In this document: positions 4,760 to 22,701 of the stretch, piece after piece
How the letters are laid out: each line of letters begins with the position of its first letter
Position numbering within the stretch: the first letter of the stretch is position 1
From: a virus
Length of the DNA stretch: 27,281 bases
Reading direction: 5' to 3' (one strand)
Virus record (IMG/VR): IMGVR_UViG_3300018083_000103
Location: 1-27,281 of that record
The notes under the pieces: generated by a model
The model's database searches: none
The model's input: the letters and a program-made list of their open reading frames with translations, nothing else
Told to the model about the DNA's origin: nothing
Translations under genes and position numbers: made by a program

Positions 4760-7663
4760 TCATGGCGTTGCCGAGTTCTGCAAGCTGCCGAGTAGTTGCA
4801 TCAAGCCCAGCACGTCAGCGTTGGCGTTGTTGCTGCCGTTGAGATTGATGGTATAGGTGTTCGAGTTGTTGTCGCCGGTCAGTCGCTTGTCAGTAGGTAG
4901 CGGATTGCCGTATTGGTCTTTGGCGTCGTAGTAGTTGGCGAGCGTGCGGAAATCTACCGCAGATTGCAGCAAGTCAGCGACCTTGCTTGGGTCAGTGCCG
5001 GCGCTTATCTTCTTCAAGACAAGCGGCAAGTTAGCGGTAAGAGAGCCATAGATTTGACTAAGCCCCAACAGGGCAGCCATCTTTTGCCGGATGGTATCGC
5101 TCGCGCCTCGCAACTCTCCGAGACCAATCGCATTATTGTTCTTGTCCATTGCCAGCCCGCTAAAGACGGCGTTAACTTTGGTGTTGTCAAGGGTATCGCT
5201 AAAGAAGTCGCCCAGCCCAGCGATAAAGTCCTTGACCTTCGCCGCCGCTTCTTTGGCGCTATCTTTGGCGCTCTTAATGTCAGGCGTCGTCAAGTTGATG
5301 CCACCGAGTAGCCCCTGGTTCGTGGTATTGACGTTGGTGTTACCGCCAATCAGCGCGCCAATCGTGTTGGTCGTTGGCGTGGTCGCCGGCGTGATATTTG
5401 GCGTAGGCGTGTTGCCACCAGCGGGGCCGATAATCAGCCCACCACCGGGCGCGATGCCGATAACATTACCCGTGCCACCCATCGAAGGCGGTAAGAGTTT
5501 GGGGTCAATGCCTAAAAGTTGCGCTATATTCGCTGGGTTGATGGCCTGATCTTTGACGGCTTTCAAGTAGGACTGTTGCGCCTGTACCGCCGCTTGGCGA
5601 GTGATGGTATCAATCTGTCCCTGCAAGGTGGCGTTCGCCAAGTCCATCGTTGACTTAATTTGGTCAGCCACGTACTGCGCTTCGGATTTCAGGCCGTCGC
5701 CCAGACCGTGCGCCATCGCCGCACCTGCGTCACGCGTGCGCCCCATGTCCTGATCTACGCCACCGACCAAGCCGGCCACCACGTCCTGTCCAAACCCCCA
5801 AAAGAGGCGACTAGGTGATGCGATGCCCAGCAACGATGTTGTTGCACTGATGAGCAGACGGATGGGGCCGAAGTTATTCCACCAGTTGAGGAAATCGTCC
5901 TTCTTTTCTTCGATGCCCTTACGTAACCCCTCTACGATGTTCCTGCCTGCCTCTAGCAGGCTGTCTCTCCACTTGGGCCAATTGTCCTGCACCCATTGCA
6001 CGATGGATTGACCCCACTCTTTTAGCTTCTCAAGTGCGGTCGGTATGGCCTCTTTGGTAATCCATTCCCAAGCGGCTTTGGCCCAATCCGCTAAATTATC
6101 ACGCCACTTGGGCGCGTTGTCTTTGACCCACTCCCATAGCTGCGCGCCCCACTTGGCAATCTGCTCAAGCGCGGCAGGGATGGCGGTGTCAGTGATCCAC
6201 TTCCAAGCGTAGCCTGCCCATTCAAGTAGTACATCTTTCCACGCCGGTGCATTTTGCTTGACCCAATCCCACAGCTTGCCGCCCCAATCTGCCAGCGCCC
6301 TGAGTGCAACCGGCGTAACATCAACAATCCACTTCCACAGGGTCAGCCCCATCTCTTTTGCCAGGTCAGCCAACGCTCGCAACAAATCCAGTCCCAAATG
6401 CCCCATCGTTTCGATGAACCTCAGGAATGCCGGCTTCACAGCGGGGATAAGTTCCTCAGTAATCCAGCGCCACAGCTTGTCGGCCCAGCCACTCGCCATG
6501 CCGCCAAGTTGGTTGCTGCCTGCGCCGTCACCCTCGCCGCGTAGGCCGCGTATAAAGTTAGCGAGTGACTCAATCGCCTTTGGCAAGGTATCGTCAATCC
6601 ACTGGTAAAGCGCCGTCTCCCATTCAAGGAATGTCGCAATAAAGCGCGGCAAGGCATGTACTAACCAGGTCACAATCTCGCCGCCCCAATTCGTGAGCTT
6701 TTGCAAAACGATGGGAATGGAGTCTACTACCCATTTCCACATCGCCGCCGTCCAGTCTTTAATCACCGGCAATACGCTCTTAATCACCGCGCCAAAGGCT
6801 TCTGCATAAGATCCGCCCTTGCTCAGATGGTCGTTAAATATACCCACGAGGCCACTCAGATAGTCAGTGGCGGCGCTGAGTATCGGCATGGCGCGCTTGG
6901 CAAGGTCGTCAAAAATCGGGATAAGGAACATGCCGACTTGCTCTTTGACATCGCCCCACATATTCGCCAACTGCTTGCCTGGTTCGACCATCGCCCTAGC
7001 CGAGCCGCCAAACTCTTTGGCGAGTTCGTCCAAGATTAGCCCTTGTGCGCCGGCGACGTTGCCCGCTTCGACCATCGTCGTGATTTGCTCTTTTTGTTGG
7101 TCGGTGAAGGTGACACCCACGCGTGACAGCGCGCTGATACCGGCAATCGGGTCATTCAATGCCTTGCCAAGTTGCACGGCACTGCTTTTCATATCCTGCC
7201 CAAGCGCCTGCGACATATCTAGCATGGACTCGGTAGCGCGCGGAAAGACATCTTTGCCAATATTGGTAAAGGTCAGCAGCAGGTTTTCACCGCCAAGTAC
7301 CGCCTCGCCATCAAAGTTGGTTACTTGCTGCATCGAATCAGCCAGCTTATTCGCCATCTCAGACGTGACGCCCGCCGCGCCGCCGGTGCTTTTTAGTACC
7401 GCCTCTAGTTGCTTTTCAACCTGGATATGCTCACGGGCAATATCGGCGCTGTCACGAAAGGCAAAAACAAGCCCACCCACCGCCGCCGCGCCCGCAGTCA
7501 AGGCAACCGTCAAGCCGCCTGTCATCAAGCTACCAAAGGAACTAAAAACACTATGGCTCTCTTTGGCGTTGTCGTTCATACCGCCAAGCGAACTCTTGAC
7601 CGTGTTAATAGCCGGGCTTGCCTTGTCGGTGGCGTTGATTAGAATGTCGATTGCGTCAGCCAT
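4760..7663 (-). CDS. Tail tape measure protein
   Basis: At 967 residues this is the longest gene in the window and sets tail length. By the usual rule of about 1.5 angstroms per residue it implies a tail near 145 nm. Residues 1-45 are a polar helix start, and 49-70 form a strongly hydrophobic Gly/Ala-rich segment. Residues 74-300 are helical, with the GKALNDPIAGISALSRVGV stretch typical of tape measures. Residues 300-590 are Trp-rich repeats. SPSRLF at about 616-621, followed by GQDVVAGLVGGV, is the conserved tape-measure tail motif. Residues 730-790 are a Gly/Thr/Pro/Asn-rich linker. The ribosome-binding site is weak. The promoter of the divergent plus-strand gene lies immediately upstream. 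Confidence 0.95.
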   Translation of the reverse strand: MADAIDILINATDKASPAINTVKSSLGGMNDNAKESHSVFSSFGSLMTGGLTVALTAGAAAVGGLVFAFRDSADIAREHIQVEKQLEAVLKSTGGAAGVTSEMANKLADSMQQVTNFDGEAVLGGENLLLTFTNIGKDVFPRATESMLDMSQALGQDMKSSAVQLGKALNDPIAGISALSRVGVTFTDQQKEQITTMVEAGNVAGAQGLILDELAKEFGGSARAMVEPGKQLANMWGDVKEQVGMFLIPIFDDLAKRAMPILSAATDYLSGLVGIFNDHLSKGGSYAEAFGAVIKSVLPVIKDWTAAMWKWVVDSIPIVLQKLTNWGGEIVTWLVHALPRFIATFLEWETALYQWIDDTLPKAIESLANFIRGLRGEGDGAGSNQLGGMASGWADKLWRWITEELIPAVKPAFLRFIETMGHLGLDLLRALADLAKEMGLTLWKWIVDVTPVALRALADWGGKLWDWVKQNAPAWKDVLLEWAGYAWKWITDTAIPAALEQIAKWGAQLWEWVKDNAPKWRDNLADWAKAAWEWITKEAIPTALEKLKEWGQSIVQWVQDNWPKWRDSLLEAGRNIVEGLRKGIEEKKDDFLNWWNNFGPIRLLISATTSLLGIASPSRLFWGFGQDVVAGLVGGVDQDMGRTRDAGAAMAHGLGDGLKSEAQYVADQIKSTMDLANATLQGQIDTITRQAAVQAQQSYLKAVKDQAINPANIAQLLGIDPKLLPPSMGGTGNVIGIAPGGGLIIGPAGGNTPTPNITPATTPTTNTIGALIGGNTNVNTTNQGLLGGINLTTPDIKSAKDSAKEAAAKVKDFIAGLGDFFSDTLDNTKVNAVFSGLAMDKNNNAIGLGELRGASDTIRQKMAALLGLSQIYGSLTANLPLVLKKISAGTDPSKVADLLQSAVDFRTLANYYDAKDQYGNPLPTDKRLTGDNNSNTYTINLNGSNNANADVLGLMQLLGSLQNSATP
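5939..6337 (-). repeat. Tandem Trp-rich ~44-residue repeats in tape measure
   Basis: Tape-measure residues 443-575 contain three tandem copies with the pattern WxWI....P.AL..L..WG..LW.WV..N.P.W.D.L..WA. Degenerate related units extend upstream to about residue 309 (WKWVVDSIP, YQWIDDTLP, LWRWITEELIP). The regular Trp spacing suggests a repeated helical hairpin. Copy-number change here would alter tail length. The repeats differ at the DNA level. Confidence 0.8.
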
Positions 7664-7670
7664 TTGTCAC

Positions 7671-7699
7671 TTGACTATCCTTGCCTGCACGGGTACGAT
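7671..7699 (+). promoter_or_regulatory. Sigma70-like promoter for the plus-strand moron
   Basis: TTGACT at 7671-7676 is followed by a 17-base spacer and TACGAT at 7694-7699. This matches the -35 box at five of six positions and the -10 box at four of six, with ideal spacing. It lies 46 bases ahead of the ATG at 7745, inside the 81-base divergent gap with the tape measure gene. It is the most convincing promoter seen in the window. Activity is inferred. Confidence 0.6.
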
Positions 7700-7744
7700 A
7701 TTTACGTTTCTGTCCAAAGACCATAAACGTTAGGAGATGCCCCG

Positions 7745-8212
7745 ATGAAACGCATATTGCCCTTTGGTCTTGGTTACGTCGCTGGCTTTGCCACGCTCTT
7801 TGTACTCATGCTCATCTTTGGCGATTACAGCGATACACCGTCTCAAGTTTCAGCCGCCCCTTCAGTGCCACAAATCGACGCCGGTCTTGTGCTTGGCAGC
7901 TTTCAATCGACGGGTATTCAAGTCCAAGATATTGATCGCACTCCCCAACTTGACCCCAACTCGCCGCTACCCCGCAGTTTTCGCTCACATGCCACATGGA
8001 AAGATGCCCTACTTGGCGACAAAGGTGGTCAGCTTTTTGTCTGCGATAGCCCCGACCTTTGCCGTTCCATCTCTGCCTACTTTCAGGCGCTCGTAGGATT
8101 GGCTGGCCCTTACACCTACACCTCGCCATCGGGCTTGGTTGTCGTTCAGGTCAACAGCAGTTACACCCCTGACCAAGCAATACGTTACAAAAATGCTTTG
8201 GCGAATTACTAG
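7745..8212 (+). CDS. Membrane-anchored extracytoplasmic protein, antisense moron
   Basis: This 155-residue protein is the only supported gene on the plus strand. Residues 1-6 are polar and basic. Residues 7-25 form one hydrophobic segment with a GxxxG-like GLGYVAG start. There is no lipobox, so an uncleaved anchor or Sec signal is likely. The rest faces outward and contains C100 and C106 in a GGQLFVCDSPDLC context, a possible disulfide, then a GPYTYTSPSGLVVVQVNSS strand pair. AGGAG lies eight to nine bases before the ATG, with its own promoter upstream. The gene sits exactly between the tail chaperone and tape measure genes, which are normally adjacent. It may serve host conversion or superinfection exclusion, but I do not recognise a characterised family. 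Confidence 0.8.
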   Translation: MKRILPFGLGYVAGFATLFVLMLIFGDYSDTPSQVSAAPSVPQIDAGLVLGSFQSTGIQVQDIDRTPQLDPNSPLPRSFRSHATWKDALLGDKGGQLFVCDSPDLCRSISAYFQALVGLAGPYTYTSPSGLVVVQVNSSYTPDQAIRYKNALANY

Positions 8213-8732
8213 CCATTCTGTCGCGTCTTTTGTACTTCTGTCTCGACTGACATAATCACGAGTAGCCGATACATATCGCGCGCCGGTTCGCGCTCCACCT
8301 CAGAGGGAAACTTGTGGAAGTGTTCGCATATCAGATACTCATAATATTCTTCTGGTATCGGAAAGCGCGCGCTGTCTTGCATCCACAAGGCTTCCCGCAG
8401 CCGGTCGGCTAGTTTCCCTCAGCGGCGGTTTCCTGCGCGTCACCCATCATTAGTTTACGCATAATTTCATTGACCACTTCCAGCGGTAACTCGTCAGTGT
8501 CGCACCCCGACACCCTCCTGATCATGTCTTCCATGAAATCACTTAGTTCATCCTCGCCAATTTCCTCATTGGCAAGGCGAGCGCGCAATTTACGCAACTC
8601 TTTACCGTCCTTCCAGAGCAACTTTGACATATCAATTTCGCCGGCAAATGTGGCGTGCTTGACAGTAATATTGATGCCCTTTGGCGCGGCCTGTTCGACC
8701 GCGCCATTCCCCTGTACCAATTCGTCTGACAT
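8209..8732 (-). CDS. Tail assembly chaperone, frameshifted long form (gpGT-like)
   Basis: A -1 ribosomal slip at 8418-8412 joins the 107-residue upstream frame to a second frame. This frame reads from CTA at 8412-8410 to a TAG at 8211-8209 and adds 67 residues (about 174 in all). The added part begins LADRLREALWMQD and contains IPEEYYEYLICEHFHKFPSEVE, acidic and aromatic, as is usual for T extensions. In long-tailed phages, the G and GT forms bind the tape measure and recruit tail-tube subunits, and are absent from the virion. The extension has no start codon or ribosome-binding site of its own, which supports frameshifting. Its TAG is the complement of the plus-strand gene's TAG. Confidence 0.85.
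8399..8418 (-). promoter_or_regulatory. -1 programmed frameshift site GGGAAAC with small stem-loop
   Basis: On the minus strand, GGGAAAC occupies 8418-8412 in the phase G GGA AAC, the canonical X XXY YYZ arrangement, and the next codon is the zero-frame TAG. One base downstream is a perfect 12-base palindrome (8410-8399, AGCCGACCGGCT) that can form a four-pair stem and may act as a stimulator together with the stop codon. Both tRNAs can re-pair as GGG and AAA after the slip. Confidence 0.85.
8409..8732 (-). CDS. Tail assembly chaperone, short form (gpG-like)
   Basis: This 107-residue acidic, helical protein is encoded immediately after the major tail protein gene. That place, the small size, the KHATFAGEIDMSKLLWKDGKELRKLRARL region and the -1 slip site at its last two codons mark it as the short tail chaperone. 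An AGGAG site lies seven bases from the ATG. The frame ends GAG GGA AAC TAG, where the slippery heptamer directly abuts the stop. Normal termination gives this form, and slippage gives the long form. Confidence 0.85.
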   Translation of the reverse strand: MSDELVQGNGAVEQAAPKGINITVKHATFAGEIDMSKLLWKDGKELRKLRARLANEEIGEDELSDFMEDMIRRVSGCDTDELPLEVVNEIMRKLMMGDAQETAAEGN

Positions 8733-8743
8733 AACTCTCCTAC

Positions 8744-9244
8744 TTAGGTTGTAGCGGTCAAGGCGCGCAGGACTTTGGGTGCTTCCAGGACAACGCTCAC
8801 CAGCGCCGGGCCACCGTTGCCGGCGTCCAAGTCGGGTACGTTCATCGACTTGATGATGGCGGGAAAGGCGCTGCCGGCGTCGTCGGTGGCGGTGAATTGC
8901 TCGTTGCCCACGACCGTACCGATACCGCCTTCAGGCGCCCAACGGATATACACCGTCTTGGCAGAGTTGCCCGCTACCTCTTGGCGGTCTTTGATGAAGT
9001 CCCAAAACTCACCGCTTACTTTGGTGTAGATGCCCCGGCAAGTGATGGTTGCGGCGCTGTGCTTACCGCCACCGGTCACGACGGGCGCAAGGCCGTCTGC
9101 GGTGTTCTGTGCGCCGCTCATCTGCTCCTGCCCGGTGTGCTTGATGTCCACCGTACTGCCCGACTTGTCCGCCCATGACGAACCATCGGTGGACAGTTGG
9201 ACCATAAACTTATTCTGTGGGATTGCCCCGGTACTCTGTGTCAT
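8744..9244 (-). CDS. Major tail tube protein
   Basis: This 166-residue protein forms the hexameric rings of the tail tube. Evidence is the position directly before the chaperone pair, the usual length, and the layout: an N-terminal strand (KFMVQLSTDGSSW), a Gly/Thr-rich loop around residues 45-62, a central YTKVSGEFWDFIKDRQ helix region, and a C-terminal run of beta strands ending in an APKVLRAL strand. GGAG precedes the ATG by eight bases. It lies two bases after the glycosyltransferase stop, so the sugar genes and the tail tube are on one transcript. Confidence 0.8.
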   Translation of the reverse strand: MTQSTGAIPQNKFMVQLSTDGSSWADKSGSTVDIKHTGQEQMSGAQNTADGLAPVVTGGGKHSAATITCRGIYTKVSGEFWDFIKDRQEVAGNSAKTVYIRWAPEGGIGTVVGNEQFTATDDAGSAFPAIIKSMNVPDLDAGNGGPALVSVVLEAPKVLRALTATT

Positions 9245-9246
9245 TT

Positions 9247-10068
9247 CTAGTTCTCCATAATCTCAATGGCGCGCCTGTCCAGGAAGATGGCGGCGGCGTC
9301 TGCACTCAACTCGATACTGTCACCTACTTTGTATTCTTTACTCGGCCCTGAAATCTGCCGTCTTACACGATATGTTGCTACGTCAGGCAAGACGATACCC
9401 TTATGCTGTGGCACGTCGCCACCCTCTATCCTGTGCATGTCGGGCGCGTCGGGGTCAGGCCACAGTACCCCGCCCTCATGGATGATATGGCCGCAGACCA
9501 CGCTTAGGTCATGCGCCATGCGAAAGCCCTTCTCCTTGGCGTCAAGGGCGAATTGCCAATCGTCGGCAAACTTGCGCCGCTTGTCGTCACGGAAGGTGAT
9601 GGCCTCGAGCACGTTCCTACGAATCAACGTACAACCAAAGCCCGCGCCCTCGCTGGGTAGCACCTTGCCCCATGCGGCTTTGGCGGCGTCACGGTCTGCA
9701 TTTAGCGCAACGCCCTTGTAGCCGTCAATGGTGGGGATACAAAGCCATATACGGCTACTGCGTGACACGTATAGACCGCAGGCAATGTCAGCGTCAACAG
9801 CAGCAAGTTTCACCAGCGCATCCGGCGGCACAATCATGTCAGCTTCGATGGTGAGTAGCGCATCGTAGCCACCCGCCAACACGTCGTCACGCATCTTGTT
9901 ATGCTTGATGGTCAGGTTGTCAGGGTGACTCAACTTGGGGTTGTCGTCGCCGTAGTAGGCAACCAATACACCATGCTTGCCATAATCCAGCGCATCCATT
10001 GATGCCCTCGCCGCAGGGTAAACATCTGGCTCAGTTGGATAAGTTGCCACGCCAATCAATATCTTCAT
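9247..10068 (-). CDS. Glycosyltransferase-like protein, GT-A fold
   Basis: This 273-residue protein has the look of a GT-A nucleotide-sugar glycosyltransferase. It has an N-terminal Rossmann-like strand (ILIGVATY) and a metal-binding type acidic motif, EAD at residues 75-77 (LLTIEADMIVP). A later GAGFGCTLIRRNVLE segment resembles the acceptor-side loop of such enzymes. The last 40 residues (YKVGDSIELSADAAAIFLDRRAIEI) form a small separate beta domain like a short KOW/SH3-style module. Its ATG overlaps the stop of the preceding GT2-like gene as ATGA, so the two are likely made together. Its place inside the tail operon suggests virion glycosylation, which is inference. Confidence 0.75.
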   Translation of the reverse strand: MKILIGVATYPTEPDVYPAARASMDALDYGKHGVLVAYYGDDNPKLSHPDNLTIKHNKMRDDVLAGGYDALLTIEADMIVPPDALVKLAAVDADIACGLYVSRSSRIWLCIPTIDGYKGVALNADRDAAKAAWGKVLPSEGAGFGCTLIRRNVLEAITFRDDKRRKFADDWQFALDAKEKGFRMAHDLSVVCGHIIHEGGVLWPDPDAPDMHRIEGGDVPQHKGIVLPDVATYRVRRQISGPSKEYKVGDSIELSADAAAIFLDRRAIEIMEN

Positions 10069-10607
10069 ACGTGTTCTGGTTCTCCCCTGCTAACCCTTTG
10101 GCATTTGCTTGCCACTACATCCAGCCAATACACTTCGTAATCTCGCTCAAAGACGTCGCTGATAAAGTTGAAATCGCTCGAATATGTTCCCGGCGCAAAG
10201 GCGCTGCGATGGCGCATCCATACCGCCCGCTTGACGATAAAGCAACTGACGCACACATGTCCCAACTGCGGCGGCTTTTGCCAGGTGAACTTGTCTGGCA
10301 AGATGTGTCCATCCCTGTCCATCTTCATCATGACCACGTCAGGATTATGGGCGAAAGCAACGTCGTATAAGTCCGCTACCAAATCCTCATAGACACACAG
10401 GTCATCGTCATCAAGCAACCACACGAAGTCCCCGCCCGGCTCATAAGTGGATAGACGCTCATAGGTGGCGGCAATGCCGATGCCCTCGTGGTCAATCATC
10501 ATCGTCTGTGTCCAGTCATGCGACGATTGCCGCTCCAGGCTGGCGCGATTGTGGCGCAACATGGCCGGGCGCTTGTACGTGCGCGTGATGATCTCTAGCA
10601 ATGCCAT
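10065..10607 (-). CDS. Family 2-like glycosyltransferase
   Basis: This 180-residue protein has the N-terminus of GT2 enzymes, EIITRTYKRPAMLRHNRASL, in which the TRT..RP segment marks the nucleotide-binding start. WLLDDDDL at residues 63-70 is the DxD-type metal-binding motif. It is short for the family (commonly 220-300 residues) and may be a minimal catalytic domain. A later FISDVFERDYEVYWLD segment may hold the catalytic base region. Its ATG overlaps the TAA of the tail-terminator gene as TAATG, and it is followed by a second glycosyltransferase. The acceptor is unknown. Confidence 0.8.
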   Translation of the reverse strand: MALLEIITRTYKRPAMLRHNRASLERQSSHDWTQTMMIDHEGIGIAATYERLSTYEPGGDFVWLLDDDDLCVYEDLVADLYDVAFAHNPDVVMMKMDRDGHILPDKFTWQKPPQLGHVCVSCFIVKRAVWMRHRSAFAPGTYSSDFNFISDVFERDYEVYWLDVVASKCQRVSRGEPEHV

Positions 10608-11595: not shown

Positions 11596-11802
11596 TTACT
11601 TTTTCGCCTTTGGACTCCGTAGCATCTTGTCAACCGGCGGCGCTTCTATCGCCTTGACCGCATCTTCGATACGAACAAAGCACCCCGGCGCATCTGCCAT
11701 TAGGAACAAATAGAGTTCGTTGTCAGGCTCAAGCACCTGCCCGACGGGGAAGTGCATCCCACGCCCAATGTACTCGCTGATAACTCTTAGTTTTTGCGCC
11801 AT
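11596..11802 (-). CDS. Small conserved head-module protein
   Basis: This is a 68-residue protein between capsid-region genes and the connector. Residues 1-45 look like a small beta barrel, with YIGRGMHFPVGQVLEPDNELYLFLMADAPGCFV. The tail is basic and Pro/Lys-rich. Short proteins of this style are common between the capsid and connector genes of siphoviruses, but I know no defined role. It overlaps the end of the sugar-methyltransferase gene by 16 bases, and its AGGAG site lies within that gene. Confidence 0.6.
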   Translation of the reverse strand: MAQKLRVISEYIGRGMHFPVGQVLEPDNELYLFLMADAPGCFVRIEDAVKAIEAPPVDKMLRSPKAKK

Positions 11803-13115
11803 AGGTTCTCGCTCTCCTCTATCATGCCAACTGCCTCACACCATGCCTTGAAATAGGCGCTGTTGTCATGGTGCATCGGGTATAGATCCTGTTGCCCAAA
11901 GTTGTTATGAGCAAAGATATGGCCGCCGCTCACGATGGCCGGCTCAAGGTCAGCTAAAAAGGTAGGCAACTCGTCCGGGTGGATATGCTCAATTGTGTCA
12001 ATGGCAACCACAAGGTCAAAGTATTCATCGCCTAATGCCTGCCCAAGCGTGTCGCCCTCTAGCCACTTGACGCGCTCGCCAAGCCGCTTGGTTGCGAAGT
12101 CTTTCAATGCGCCCGGCAACTCGAAGCAGGTTACGTCGTTATGGTCAGCCATCACATCGGCCTCTGTGCCTAAGCCTGTGCCAATCACAAGGACCCTTTG
12201 CCCTGCGATGCCGTACAGCGGCGCTATGATACGGTCATAGAGTGGTTGACAATTCCAGTTCAGCAAGTCATAGAGATAGCCGTTTTGTGCGCTGCCATAG
12301 AAGGCGCGCTCCTGCTCTGCCGTCTGCGGCGGGTTGGCTTGCCACGGCTCACGCACGTTCTTATTGCCATTGATGGACTTGGCGACTACCATGTCAGGCG
12401 TTTCGCCGGTAAAGTCGGCCACCATTCTTGCCAATCTGTCATAGCGCTCAATCAGTGGCAACTGCCCACTCACACGCAAGTAGTCTTGATAACTCTCCCA
12501 CGAGGTTGTCACCTCAGTCACATGGCCTGCCCGTATCGCCGTCGTTGCGCCCAGGCGAAAACCAAGCCCCTGCGCTTCGATACTAAAGATACCGTCCTCA
12601 GACGCCTTGTTGTGGCGCGGGTAATAGAACCAATCGAAGGTATCTGGGTCAGCATCGCCCAGCATCTTCAAGAACACTTCTCTGCGGAATAGACAGCAAT
12701 GCGTGCCTACCATATCCACATCTTCGATTTTGTCCGGGTCAGTGACGAAGCATTCCATCATCTCACCCAGGGCGTTGCGCTTCATCCAAATGGCCCGCGG
12801 CGGCCAACCCCGCCGCGGGTAGAAGGCTTGAAGGATGTCATAAGCAAAGCCCGGTTCGTAGTTCCTAAACTGCTCTACGAAGTCCGATGCTACATCGGCA
12901 TCGCTGTCAAGGGTTAGCAGGGTATCCATGTCGGTCGTAAGGAAGTGGCGCACCACATCGTTCTGTGCTTTGTGCGCCACCATCCCCGCGGCTGAATAGA
13001 GGCCGTCTCCTTTGCGTAAACCGCCGGTGACAAGCTGAGTCCACGCCTGAAAGAAGCGTGGCGTGACCTGTTTCTCCAACCTGGTTGACACCAGGATACG
13101 GCCCCAATCTTTCAC
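11787..13115 (-). CDS. Glycosyltransferase-methyltransferase fusion
   Basis: This 442-residue protein has two enzyme-like domains. Residues 1-230 resemble a GT-A glycosyltransferase, with TLDSDAD at 68-74 as the DxD metal site and VGTHCCLFRREVF at 136-148. Residues 265-442 are a class I SAM-dependent methyltransferase: VLVIGTGLGTEAD at 308-320 is motif I, FELPGA follows as the acidic loop at 331-336, and FDLVVAIDTIEHI at 366-378 is motif IV. FAHNNFG at 401-407 lies in the following strand. The likely reaction is transfer of a sugar and methylation of that or a neighbouring sugar. The start is GTG at 13115-13113 with AGGAGG upstream. It sits between decoration and connector genes. Confidence 0.8.
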   Translation of the reverse strand: MKDWGRILVSTRLEKQVTPRFFQAWTQLVTGGLRKGDGLYSAAGMVAHKAQNDVVRHFLTTDMDTLLTLDSDADVASDFVEQFRNYEPGFAYDILQAFYPRRGWPPRAIWMKRNALGEMMECFVTDPDKIEDVDMVGTHCCLFRREVFLKMLGDADPDTFDWFYYPRHNKASEDGIFSIEAQGLGFRLGATTAIRAGHVTEVTTSWESYQDYLRVSGQLPLIERYDRLARMVADFTGETPDMVVAKSINGNKNVREPWQANPPQTAEQERAFYGSAQNGYLYDLLNWNCQPLYDRIIAPLYGIAGQRVLVIGTGLGTEADVMADHNDVTCFELPGALKDFATKRLGERVKWLEGDTLGQALGDEYFDLVVAIDTIEHIHPDELPTFLADLEPAIVSGGHIFAHNNFGQQDLYPMHHDNSAYFKAWCEAVGMIEESENLWRKN

Positions 13116-20714: not shown

Positions 20715-20782
20715 TACCAGCCCCAAGTCTTATAACCGTCGGGGTGCGCCATGCCGAAGAGTGACCAAAGCAGTTCAAACAT
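20714..20782 (-). CDS. 22-residue peptide coupled to endolysin stop
   Basis: The ATG lies within the last codons of the endolysin gene, with a strong GGAGG six bases upstream. The frame runs 22 codons to a TAA whose last base starts the next ATG. The peptide is aromatic and amphipathic (FELLWSLFGMAHPDGYKTWGW). It could be a leader that carries ribosomes from the lysin to the lipoprotein gene or a functional micropeptide. The strong ribosome-binding site is the main evidence. Confidence 0.45.
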   Translation of the reverse strand: MFELLWSLFGMAHPDGYKTWGW

Positions 20783-22136
20783 TGCTTGCCTCCAGTAGTA
20801 AGTCAGCCCGACGATTCGTCCATCCGCGCCCAAAGGTATCGAAGCTGCCAAGCGTCGCGTACCATTTGAGCAGGTTGCCCACGTAGGCATCGAAGCTGCC
20901 GCCACTCTTGTCCAGCATCTCCTTAGCGCGTCCAGGGCCGGCGTTGACAGCCGTATCGAAGTGCGCCAATGCCAGCGGCCAGGGCAGCTTATCGCTACCA
21001 CTCGCCTCCCAATACCACTTGCGGTATATCTCGTCCGTCTCGGCGTCAGTGATATTTCGCAAGTCCTCTTTCGTCGGTGTCGGCAATCCCTTCGCCTCAC
21101 GCCAACGGGTAAATGTGCCGATGGTGATACCCTTGTTGGTTGCACCGCCGGGGTCGGCGGGGTTGTCAGCCCAGCCCCCTTCCCACTTCGCGATAAATGC
21201 GCGGGCGCGTGTCCAGTTGTCGCCGGATGGCGGCGCGCCGTTGTCGATGGCCGGCAAGTGCGTCTCAAATGGCGGTGTTGCGGTTGCCGTGATAGGCGTT
21301 GCCAAAATCGCCTTGTATGCCGGCTCTACGTCAAAGCTAAACCACTCATGCGCCGCGAAGTCGCTGGCAAAGACAGCGCAACCAACAAAGCGTGGATCGG
21401 CGCTCATGCGGCCCACGTACTCAGCGAGTTCGTTGGCGTAACGTTCCGGCGGCATGTGACCCTGCCAGCCGCGCCGTTGTTGCCCAACGCTCGTGTCTTT
21501 GACGAACATATCCACGCCGCATTCGCCAATCACAATCGGCACTTGCCACGGGCACTTGAGCGTGCGCCCGCCCCACCATCCCCAATTCTCAGCCGGCCCC
21601 TGGTCTGCCCAGTATTCGTGGCAGACCAAAGCGCCACCGTTGCGAAGTATCGCCTCGTCTACGCCGTGAAAGGGCGACCAATCCGGCGGCGTGTCAGGGC
21701 CATTGTTGCCCGGCCAGCCCACGCCAAGCTGCATAGCGCCTACGCGTAGGCCGTACTTCATGGCCTCGTAGCACAAAGCGATAGTGTATTGACGAAGCGC
21801 CTCAGGAAAGCCCTCTTGCCACACCGTCGGCTCGTTGATGCCAAGAATCAGCGTCTTGGTGCGGTCAAAACCAAGTTTGGGTTGATGCTCGTTCCACTCC
21901 CGCGCGTGGCGTGTACCTGTCCCAACGGGGTCGCGGAGCATGTCGGCATGTTGCTCGCTTTGAGCCCAGTCCCTAGCTACAACCAAACTATCGGAAAGAT
22001 TTGCTTTTATCCAACTGTAATCAGATTCTCCGCCATCCATAACTTTCATGACGGAGGGTTGCAACTCGGAAAAGTACGCGTAATCTTCCGCACGTCTATG
22101 CATTACAGACCAATAAACGGATAACTTACTTGTCAT
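20775..22136 (-). CDS. Endolysin with clan GH-A-like and GH108 muramidase domains
   Basis: The start is set at 22136, where AAGGAG precedes ATG by ten bases; an earlier ATG at 22166 would add ten residues inside the HNH gene. The product is 453 residues. Residues 5-285 look like a TIM-barrel glycosidase: GINEP (Glu102) after a beta strand and IGECGVD (Glu205) fit the acid/base and nucleophile of clan GH-A. Residues 309-450 match GH108 lysozymes: FIAKWEGGWADNPADPGG with catalytic-type Glu319, then NKGITIGTFTRW, and a C-terminal peptidoglycan-binding-3-like part (AHFDTAVNAGPGRA). It should cut the glycan chain of peptidoglycan. No signal peptide is seen, so export depends on the holin. Confidence 0.85.
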   Translation of the reverse strand: MTSKLSVYWSVMHRRAEDYAYFSELQPSVMKVMDGGESDYSWIKANLSDSLVVARDWAQSEQHADMLRDPVGTGTRHAREWNEHQPKLGFDRTKTLILGINEPTVWQEGFPEALRQYTIALCYEAMKYGLRVGAMQLGVGWPGNNGPDTPPDWSPFHGVDEAILRNGGALVCHEYWADQGPAENWGWWGGRTLKCPWQVPIVIGECGVDMFVKDTSVGQQRRGWQGHMPPERYANELAEYVGRMSADPRFVGCAVFASDFAAHEWFSFDVEPAYKAILATPITATATPPFETHLPAIDNGAPPSGDNWTRARAFIAKWEGGWADNPADPGGATNKGITIGTFTRWREAKGLPTPTKEDLRNITDAETDEIYRKWYWEASGSDKLPWPLALAHFDTAVNAGPGRAKEMLDKSGGSFDAYVGNLLKWYATLGSFDTFGRGWTNRRADLLLEASNV

Positions 22137-22701
22137 GGTCGCGGTGCTCCTTACCGTGACAATCAAGGCACACGGGAATTACCTCCAACCAATATTGGCG
22201 GTCATAGCCCTTGTGATGATGCCAGTGGGACGCTTGCGCCTCGTCACAAATAGAACAAACCATTGACCAGGCAGGCGGCAATAAGCTGCGACGAACTGCA
22301 CGCGCGACCGTAGTTTGTGCGCGCCTCTGGTCATTGCGATAGCCCTTCGCCTGCTTAATACTGCGTTCATATTGCCGCACTTTTTCGGGGTCGCGCTGTC
22401 TCTGAACACGCTGCCATTCGAGTACCTTACGGCGATACTCTTCATCGTTGCGATAACGTTCTCTAGCATAAGCCGTTTCATGCTCAAGATTGGCTTGATG
22501 CCATTCACGCATATACTCGCTACGGCGTTCTTGATTTTCTTCTCGCCAAGCCTTATAGAGCGCGCTAGAGCAAGACTTGCAATAAGCACGCAAGCCGTCT
22601 TTGGCACCTTTTGTTTTAGAGAATTGGTCTAGGGGTTTTGCTTCCCCGCACTTAGTGCAGGTTTTGAACGCAGGCGCGCCCAGGGTATCATTGAGGTTCA
22701 T
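22126..22701 (-). CDS. HNH endonuclease with N-terminal zinc knuckle
   Basis: The product is 191 residues from the ATG at 22701, preceded by AAAAGGGA. The frame is open upstream to 22860, a possible start that would add 53 residues of Cys/Gly/Asn-rich sequence. Residues 15-44 carry CxxC...CxxC. The middle (45-130) is a very charged helical region rich in Arg, Glu and Tyr. Residues 149-186 form the HNH core, CSIC, a HWHHHKGY segment, and CLDCHGKEH, where the His run supplies the catalytic histidine. Such genes often behave as free-standing mobile nucleases. This one lies within the lysis genes and overlaps the endolysin start by 11 bases. Confidence 0.85.
   Translation of the reverse strand: MNLNDTLGAPAFKTCTKCGEAKPLDQFSKTKGAKDGLRAYCKSCSSALYKAWREENQERRSEYMREWHQANLEHETAYARERYRNDEEYRRKVLEWQRVQRQRDPEKVRQYERSIKQAKGYRNDQRRAQTTVARAVRRSLLPPAWSMVCSICDEAQASHWHHHKGYDRQYWLEVIPVCLDCHGKEHRDHDK

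Follow-up and report, generated by a model that had tools for sequence, protein, structure and literature searches.

The question raised by the viral record IMGVR_UViG_3300018083_000103 is why a plus-strand gene, P0001, lies inside a tail operon that is read from the minus strand. The stretch analyzed covers positions 1 to 27,281 of that record (27,281 nucleotides, called the window here), and coordinates refer to it unless another record is named; records and loci compared are given L numbers. P0001 (7745-8212, plus strand) starts with ATG and encodes 155 amino acids, with an N-terminal membrane anchor followed by a small alpha/beta domain that contains Cys100 and Cys106. We propose that P0001, broadly speaking a moron, is a cargo gene placed antisense and that its product is an envelope-anchored exclusion protein expressed in lysogeny; we place the probability of this reading at about 0.45.

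Sequence conservation shows that P0001 is a real gene of a conserved family, clearly beyond chance. A tblastn search of phage records with P0001 matched Pasteurella phage AFS-2018a (E = 7e-14), and scans of viral contigs with growing alignments found relatives in 13 further records, giving 14 other records overall; records returned under two or three locus identifiers were each counted once. A scan of viral contigs with P0001 as the sole query found no relatives. A profile of 11 relatives, from which P0001 had been left out, recovered P0001 at E = 1.2e-32; of 200 shuffled P0001 sequences, not one passed at E ≤ 100. The initial annotation had named homologues without a conserved frame as a refutation; in the relatives found, the gene is conserved. 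P0001 keeps all 12 invariant columns of a 12-sequence alignment (A5) in which it is itself one of the rows, and it has the family core, KGGQxFxCx5C ... AGPYxY ... VVxQ, together with an N-terminal anchor. The motif KGGQxFxCx5C, which holds the Cys100 ... Cys106 pair (codons 8042-8062, plus strand), was present in all 15 Cys-pair members checked. Bacterial genome contigs were scanned twice using alignments of the family, with 34 and 82 pattern matches, and no relative was confirmed among them. Plasmids gave one weak Gordonia match, at E = 2e-4 with the Pasteurella relative as query. We found no description of the Cys-pair family in the literature library searched; papers beyond that library were not covered.

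P0001 has a single hydrophobic stretch, near residues 12-26. The codons of its most hydrophobic 15 residues (7778-7822, plus strand) mark the presumed membrane anchor, which is without a lipobox. A lipobox was seen in 13 of the 15 Cys-pair members, while P0001 and the L105 relative have a longer hydrophobic (transmembrane) anchor instead. The L105 gene (L105 5875-6381 / L113), the sole other relative without a lipobox, lies inside a head gene cluster and on the same strand as that cluster. Both the presumed membrane anchor and the Cys pair that had been read from the P0001 sequence alone are present, the former near residues 12-26 and the latter conserved in the family.

The position of P0001 was examined next to its two neighbors. 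On one side is the tail length tape measure gene (4760-7663, minus strand, 967 amino acids; phrog_27166, E = 2.1e-46). On the other is an open reading frame (ORF) of the gpG-like tail assembly chaperone type (8409-8732, minus strand, 107 amino acids), assigned by its position and frameshift; it had no family match in profile scans and no match in the phage-record search. Its 3' end reads ...GAG GGA AAC TAG, with the slippery heptamer GGGAAAC (8412-8418, minus strand) of the classical -1 type and a zero-frame TAG directly after it. The -1 frame continues (GKLADRL...) as a gpT-like extension (8209-8418, minus strand) up to a TAG at 8211-8209. In Bacillus phage vB_BpsS-36, the ORF in the corresponding place before the tape measure gene is similar to this extension (E = 5.6e-4), and this counterpart supports the frameshift. 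As had been noticed at first reading, one CTAG (8209-8212) serves as the stop of both convergent genes, P0001 on the plus strand and the frameshifted chaperone on the minus strand.

Relatives of the tape measure protein were collected by scanning with its conserved part, and 80 loci were compared out of 138 confirmed relatives; 76 of the 80 were long enough to be assessed. A same-strand ORF ended within -45 to +30 of the tape measure start in 70 of the 76, compared to 413 of 1600 random positions (26%); the loci in which none did were L062, L067, L081, L082, L092, and L093. In the cultured relatives RcCronus and R4C the chaperone is likewise followed by the tape measure gene. The claim that P0001 splits genes that are normally adjacent was thus borne out. 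A search for relatives lacking the insert, which the initial annotation had proposed, was also positive, as none of the 80 tape measure loci carries a P0001 relative. When the tape measure protein was used in full as the query, a viral-contig scan had no matches, and seven terminase relatives (L010-L016; fragments or distant) showed no matching tape measure protein and no P0001 relative. The G+C content of P0001 is 52.1%, and all 407 overlapping stretches taken from 17 minus-strand genes were higher. P0001 therefore agrees with a moron in the broad sense in two respects, namely insertion between genes that are adjacent in relatives and a composition (G+C) that differs from that of the surrounding genes. 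These observations support P0001 as an insert in the tail operon, on its own strand and of deviant composition.

The surroundings of the relatives bear on when such a gene is expressed. A helix-turn-helix (HTH)-, CI- or S24-type gene was found by Pfam upstream and on the same strand in 9 of the 14 other records (L103, L110, L003, L005, L007, L008, L106, L111, and L114), either directly next to the relative or at a distance of one to two genes; L104 was outside the regulator scan. Six of the nine matches are above the Pfam cut-off and those in L005, L008, and L103 are below it. L005 also has an IrrE-type peptidase (E = 0.0026, below the cut-off), and in AFS-2018a an annotated regulator lies two genes upstream of the P0001 relative. 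The Cys-pair family is enriched beside regulators and mostly travels with repressor-type genes. Many of the phages carrying relatives can be read as Mu-like because of transposase-like and annotated neighbors, and there the relatives mostly lie downstream of a repressor-type gene. The placement of most relatives beside genes that keep a phage dormant suggests that P0001 shields infected cells from rival phages. In L111, the slot of the relative also holds a PDC-M48B candidate defence protein (E = 1e-148). This gene and a membrane-type ORF before it (L111 7189-8917) are downstream of the lipoprotein gene. In L114, a GmrSD_N protein (E = 4.5e-23) and a small ORF (L114 4164-5771) stand between the regulator and the lipoprotein gene, in what is likely a defence cargo slot. 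PADLOC gave no match for P0001, and four other cargo proteins had no PADLOC match below E = 0.03.

A remote sister family extends this pattern to phages of Gram-positive hosts. The L006 relative matched 34 phage records (28 Paenibacillus, 4 Staphylococcus, 1 Psychrobacillus, and 1 Pasteurella), and five Gram-positive proteins tested all matched phrog_8870, a family annotated as of unknown function, at E = 3.1e-46 or better. The pairwise Staphylococcus matches were weak (E = 0.05 to 0.8), so their link rests on the PHROG profile. The Pasteurella relative and most tested Cys-pair members matched phrog_8870 weakly to moderately (E = 6e-8 to 0.004), and the L003 relative did not match it. A profile-profile comparison of the Cys-pair and Gram-positive groups gave 98.4% (E = 8.5e-15). 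The phrog_8870 proteins, which are lipoproteins of Paenibacillus and Staphylococcus phages, have the same overall layout and a position in the lysogeny module; unlike the P0001 family, the five members tested are without the KGGQxFxCx5C motif and the Cys pair. In SpT152 and VL4, both Staphylococcus phages, the gene is flanked by a regulator and an integrase; in Paenibacillus phage Hayley, a regulator, a toxin, and an integrase precede it on its own strand. In SAP3 the match has no annotated gene beneath it and adjoins an integrase feature. The weak Gordonia plasmid match did not hit phrog_8870 even with E values up to 1 allowed. A possible identity of phrog_8870 with the Sie2009 family was rejected, as Sie2009 belongs to phrog_8545. 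Relatives that neighbor repressor-type genes, or that sit in modules of regulator and integrase, give independent support to expression of P0001 in lysogeny.

The slot itself is already known: in HK97, the gap between the chaperone, likewise -1 frameshifted, and the tape measure gene is occupied by gp15, a known superinfection exclusion moron. HK97 gp15 differs in being 62 amino acids long, on the strand of the tail genes, and followed by an annotated terminator, whereas P0001 is antisense. It is described as a predicted inner-membrane protein that blocks DNA injection (PMC10883804). Ltp of Streptococcus phage TP-J34 and Sie2009 of Lactococcus phage Tuc2009, which are membrane- or lipid-anchored exclusion proteins encoded in the lysogeny module, are described along with gp15 as stopping DNA injection (PMC10883804, PMC3952083). 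Tab of Pseudomonas phage JBD26 is presented as a moron on the strand opposite to the late operon, expressed in the prophage from its own promoter and acting on a target connected with the tape measure protein (PMC10884400). Going by that description, Tab can be likened to P0001; it has 83 residues, lies between terminase genes, affects tail assembly, and has a counter-protein. Exclusion by genes beside the repressor is reported for Pseudomonas phage Fc02 (PMC9936078), and SNIPE is portrayed as a membrane protein able to act on entry via tape measure proteins (PMC13190303).

With these systems as precedents, exclusion is the best supported of the putative roles. P0001 would be made from its own promoter in the dormant phage, or else soon after infection begins; its one N-terminal anchor would fix it to the cytoplasmic membrane. 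Its small alpha/beta domain, probably bearing a disulphide, would be displayed outside the membrane. There it would make it harder for related phages to enter, like Ltp, Sie2009, and HK97 gp15, and may do so through contact with the tape measure protein as this comes in. Late transcription of the minus strand would run antisense through P0001 and turn it down during virion production.

Several findings weigh against this reading, and one group of them concerns expression and lifestyle. The phage would have to be temperate, as we infer it to be; no repressor or integrase was recognised among 18 window proteins scanned, a subset of the window ORFs, and for this reason the phage may not be temperate. 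P0001 has no adjoining regulator in the window, and the same is true of the L105 relative, which has a Mu-F-type head gene (E = 2.3e-6, below the cut-off) on one side and more head genes on the other, and of the L006 relative, which is amid genes that look P2-like by eye and has a neighbor without a Pfam match. No regulator gene is in view in L004, and the PVJ1 gene of the sister family is outside any lysogeny module. The promoter described for P0001, TTGACT-N17-TACGAT (7671-7699, plus strand), is present, with TTGACT at 7671-7676, a 17-nucleotide spacer, and TACGAT ending at 7699, and so is a ribosome-site-like AGGAG (7732-7736, plus strand) 8 nucleotides ahead of the ATG. At 9 of 12 consensus matches the promoter is suggestive only. 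The window has 18 sites of such quality on both strands, or about 1 per 3 kb per strand, which gives P ~0.026 for at least one in the 81-nucleotide gap before P0001, counting consensus match only. A second scan, covering 2.5 kb, found 2 sites against 1.5 +/- 1.3 expected. Thus, the putative promoter exceeds chance weakly. A moron in the classical definition has its own promoter and its own terminator, and no terminator was found after P0001 in a simple scan of 8212-8970, other terminator types being outside that scan. The interpretation in the initial annotation stands for the insert, its own strand, its deviant composition, and the anchored Cys-pair protein; the promoter is weak, the terminator was not found, and antisense silencing is conjectural.

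The other group concerns homology and fold. P0001 had no detectable homology to HK97 gp15 and no alignment to Sie2009, and it did not match phrog_8870 at E up to 10; it reached E = 0.26 with the Gram-positive profile and is linked to that family via relatives and the profile comparison only. AlphaFold models of the L003 relative and of P0001 had predicted local distance difference test (pLDDT) scores of 84.3 and 80.3, and a Foldseek search of solved structures with the L003 model returned nothing at E ≤ 0.001. The P0001 model gave Z = 7.7 with the PknH ectodomain 4esq (root mean square deviation [rmsd] 3.8, 108 aligned), 7.2 with 1vr8 (3.0, 99), and 5.8 with TiME 7cu9 (3.2, 101); the L003 model gave 7.3 with 1vr8 (3.0, 101) and 6.9 with 4esq (3.8, 107). 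These neighbors were rejected as confident relatives, as all had Z < 8 and were tied with or near kinase-type N-lobes, and the resemblance may reflect a common arrangement alone. Searched against a viral library, both models matched best to a Corynebacterium phage StAB lipoprotein (E = 1.6e-3 and 2.3e-3), which was not located in the StAB genome. Ltp has a helical repeat fold, and no Ltp family was found in Pfam scans of P0001.

Surface lipoproteins beside repressors would suit any trait expressed from a prophage, so P0001 could instead bring about lysogenic conversion of another sort, altering the envelope for the benefit of the host and not directed at phages. The best solved neighbors, though non-significant, are extracellular bacterial domains (PknH ectodomain, Z = 7.7; TiME, Z = 5.8). 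Defence-type genes in the common slot of two records (L111 and L114) speak against host benefit of this kind, by association only, and we regard it as possible but unlikely. P0001 could also be an envelope protein tied to lysis, one that protects against endolysin or sets the time at which it acts, such as a periplasmic inhibitor. Several relatives are just ahead of lysis genes, with an amidase next in L002, L004, and L005 and a next ORF that looks endolysin-like by eye in L003 and L007. However, the sister family gene of Gram-positive hosts lies with an integrase and regulator, outside the lysis cassette, the window endolysin gene is 12 kb from P0001 on the opposite strand, and P0001 matched no lysozyme inhibitor family, making a lysis role improbable.

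The convergence of P0001 on the chaperone gene, with a common stop, could also point to a factor for virion assembly or tail gene expression, for instance through antisense pairing over the chaperone/tape measure junction, and in L105 the relative belongs to a same-strand row of head genes. Since P0001 is missing from all 80 tape measure loci compared, and since the protein, beyond RNA alone, is conserved far outside the phage type of the window, such a role seems very improbable. Finally, the deviant G+C and weak promoter would fit a passenger without present function, newly acquired or decaying, but the frame is open and all family-invariant residues are kept, including the Cys pair; we consider this the least probable explanation.

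The exclusion reading also has a far-reaching form. One superfamily of anchored exclusion proteins would span Staphylococcus, Paenibacillus, Mu-like, and uncultured siphophages; here a member would have moved antisense into the tail operon, where it would protect the dormant cell through contact with tape measure proteins that come in. The late transcript of the phage itself would switch it off, a built-in means of sparing itself that would replace a counter-defence gene of the anti-Tab kind. We think it improbable that all of this holds. An unannotated antisense cargo gene is now tied to a wide, lysogeny-linked, envelope-anchored family whose phages infect Gram-negative as well as Gram-positive hosts. 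Should exclusion prove true for one member, a function would be gained for the whole family, and the antisense placement might be a case of a phage sparing itself from its own exclusion protein.

Three minor observations were made on other window genes. At the tape measure start (7661-7690, minus strand), the ribosome-site match is weak (AAGGA, 14 nucleotides off), and in relatives this start usually abuts the upstream gene; because the match is weak, the insert may have uncoupled translation of the tape measure gene. The endolysin (20775-22166, minus strand) has a C-terminal GH108 domain (E = 5.2e-27) and a longer N-terminal domain that reads as glycoside hydrolase-like. Glycosyltransferase-like proteins are encoded among the head and tail genes at 9247-10607 and 11787-13115 (minus strand), the first two identified by weak Pfam matches and the third by eye.

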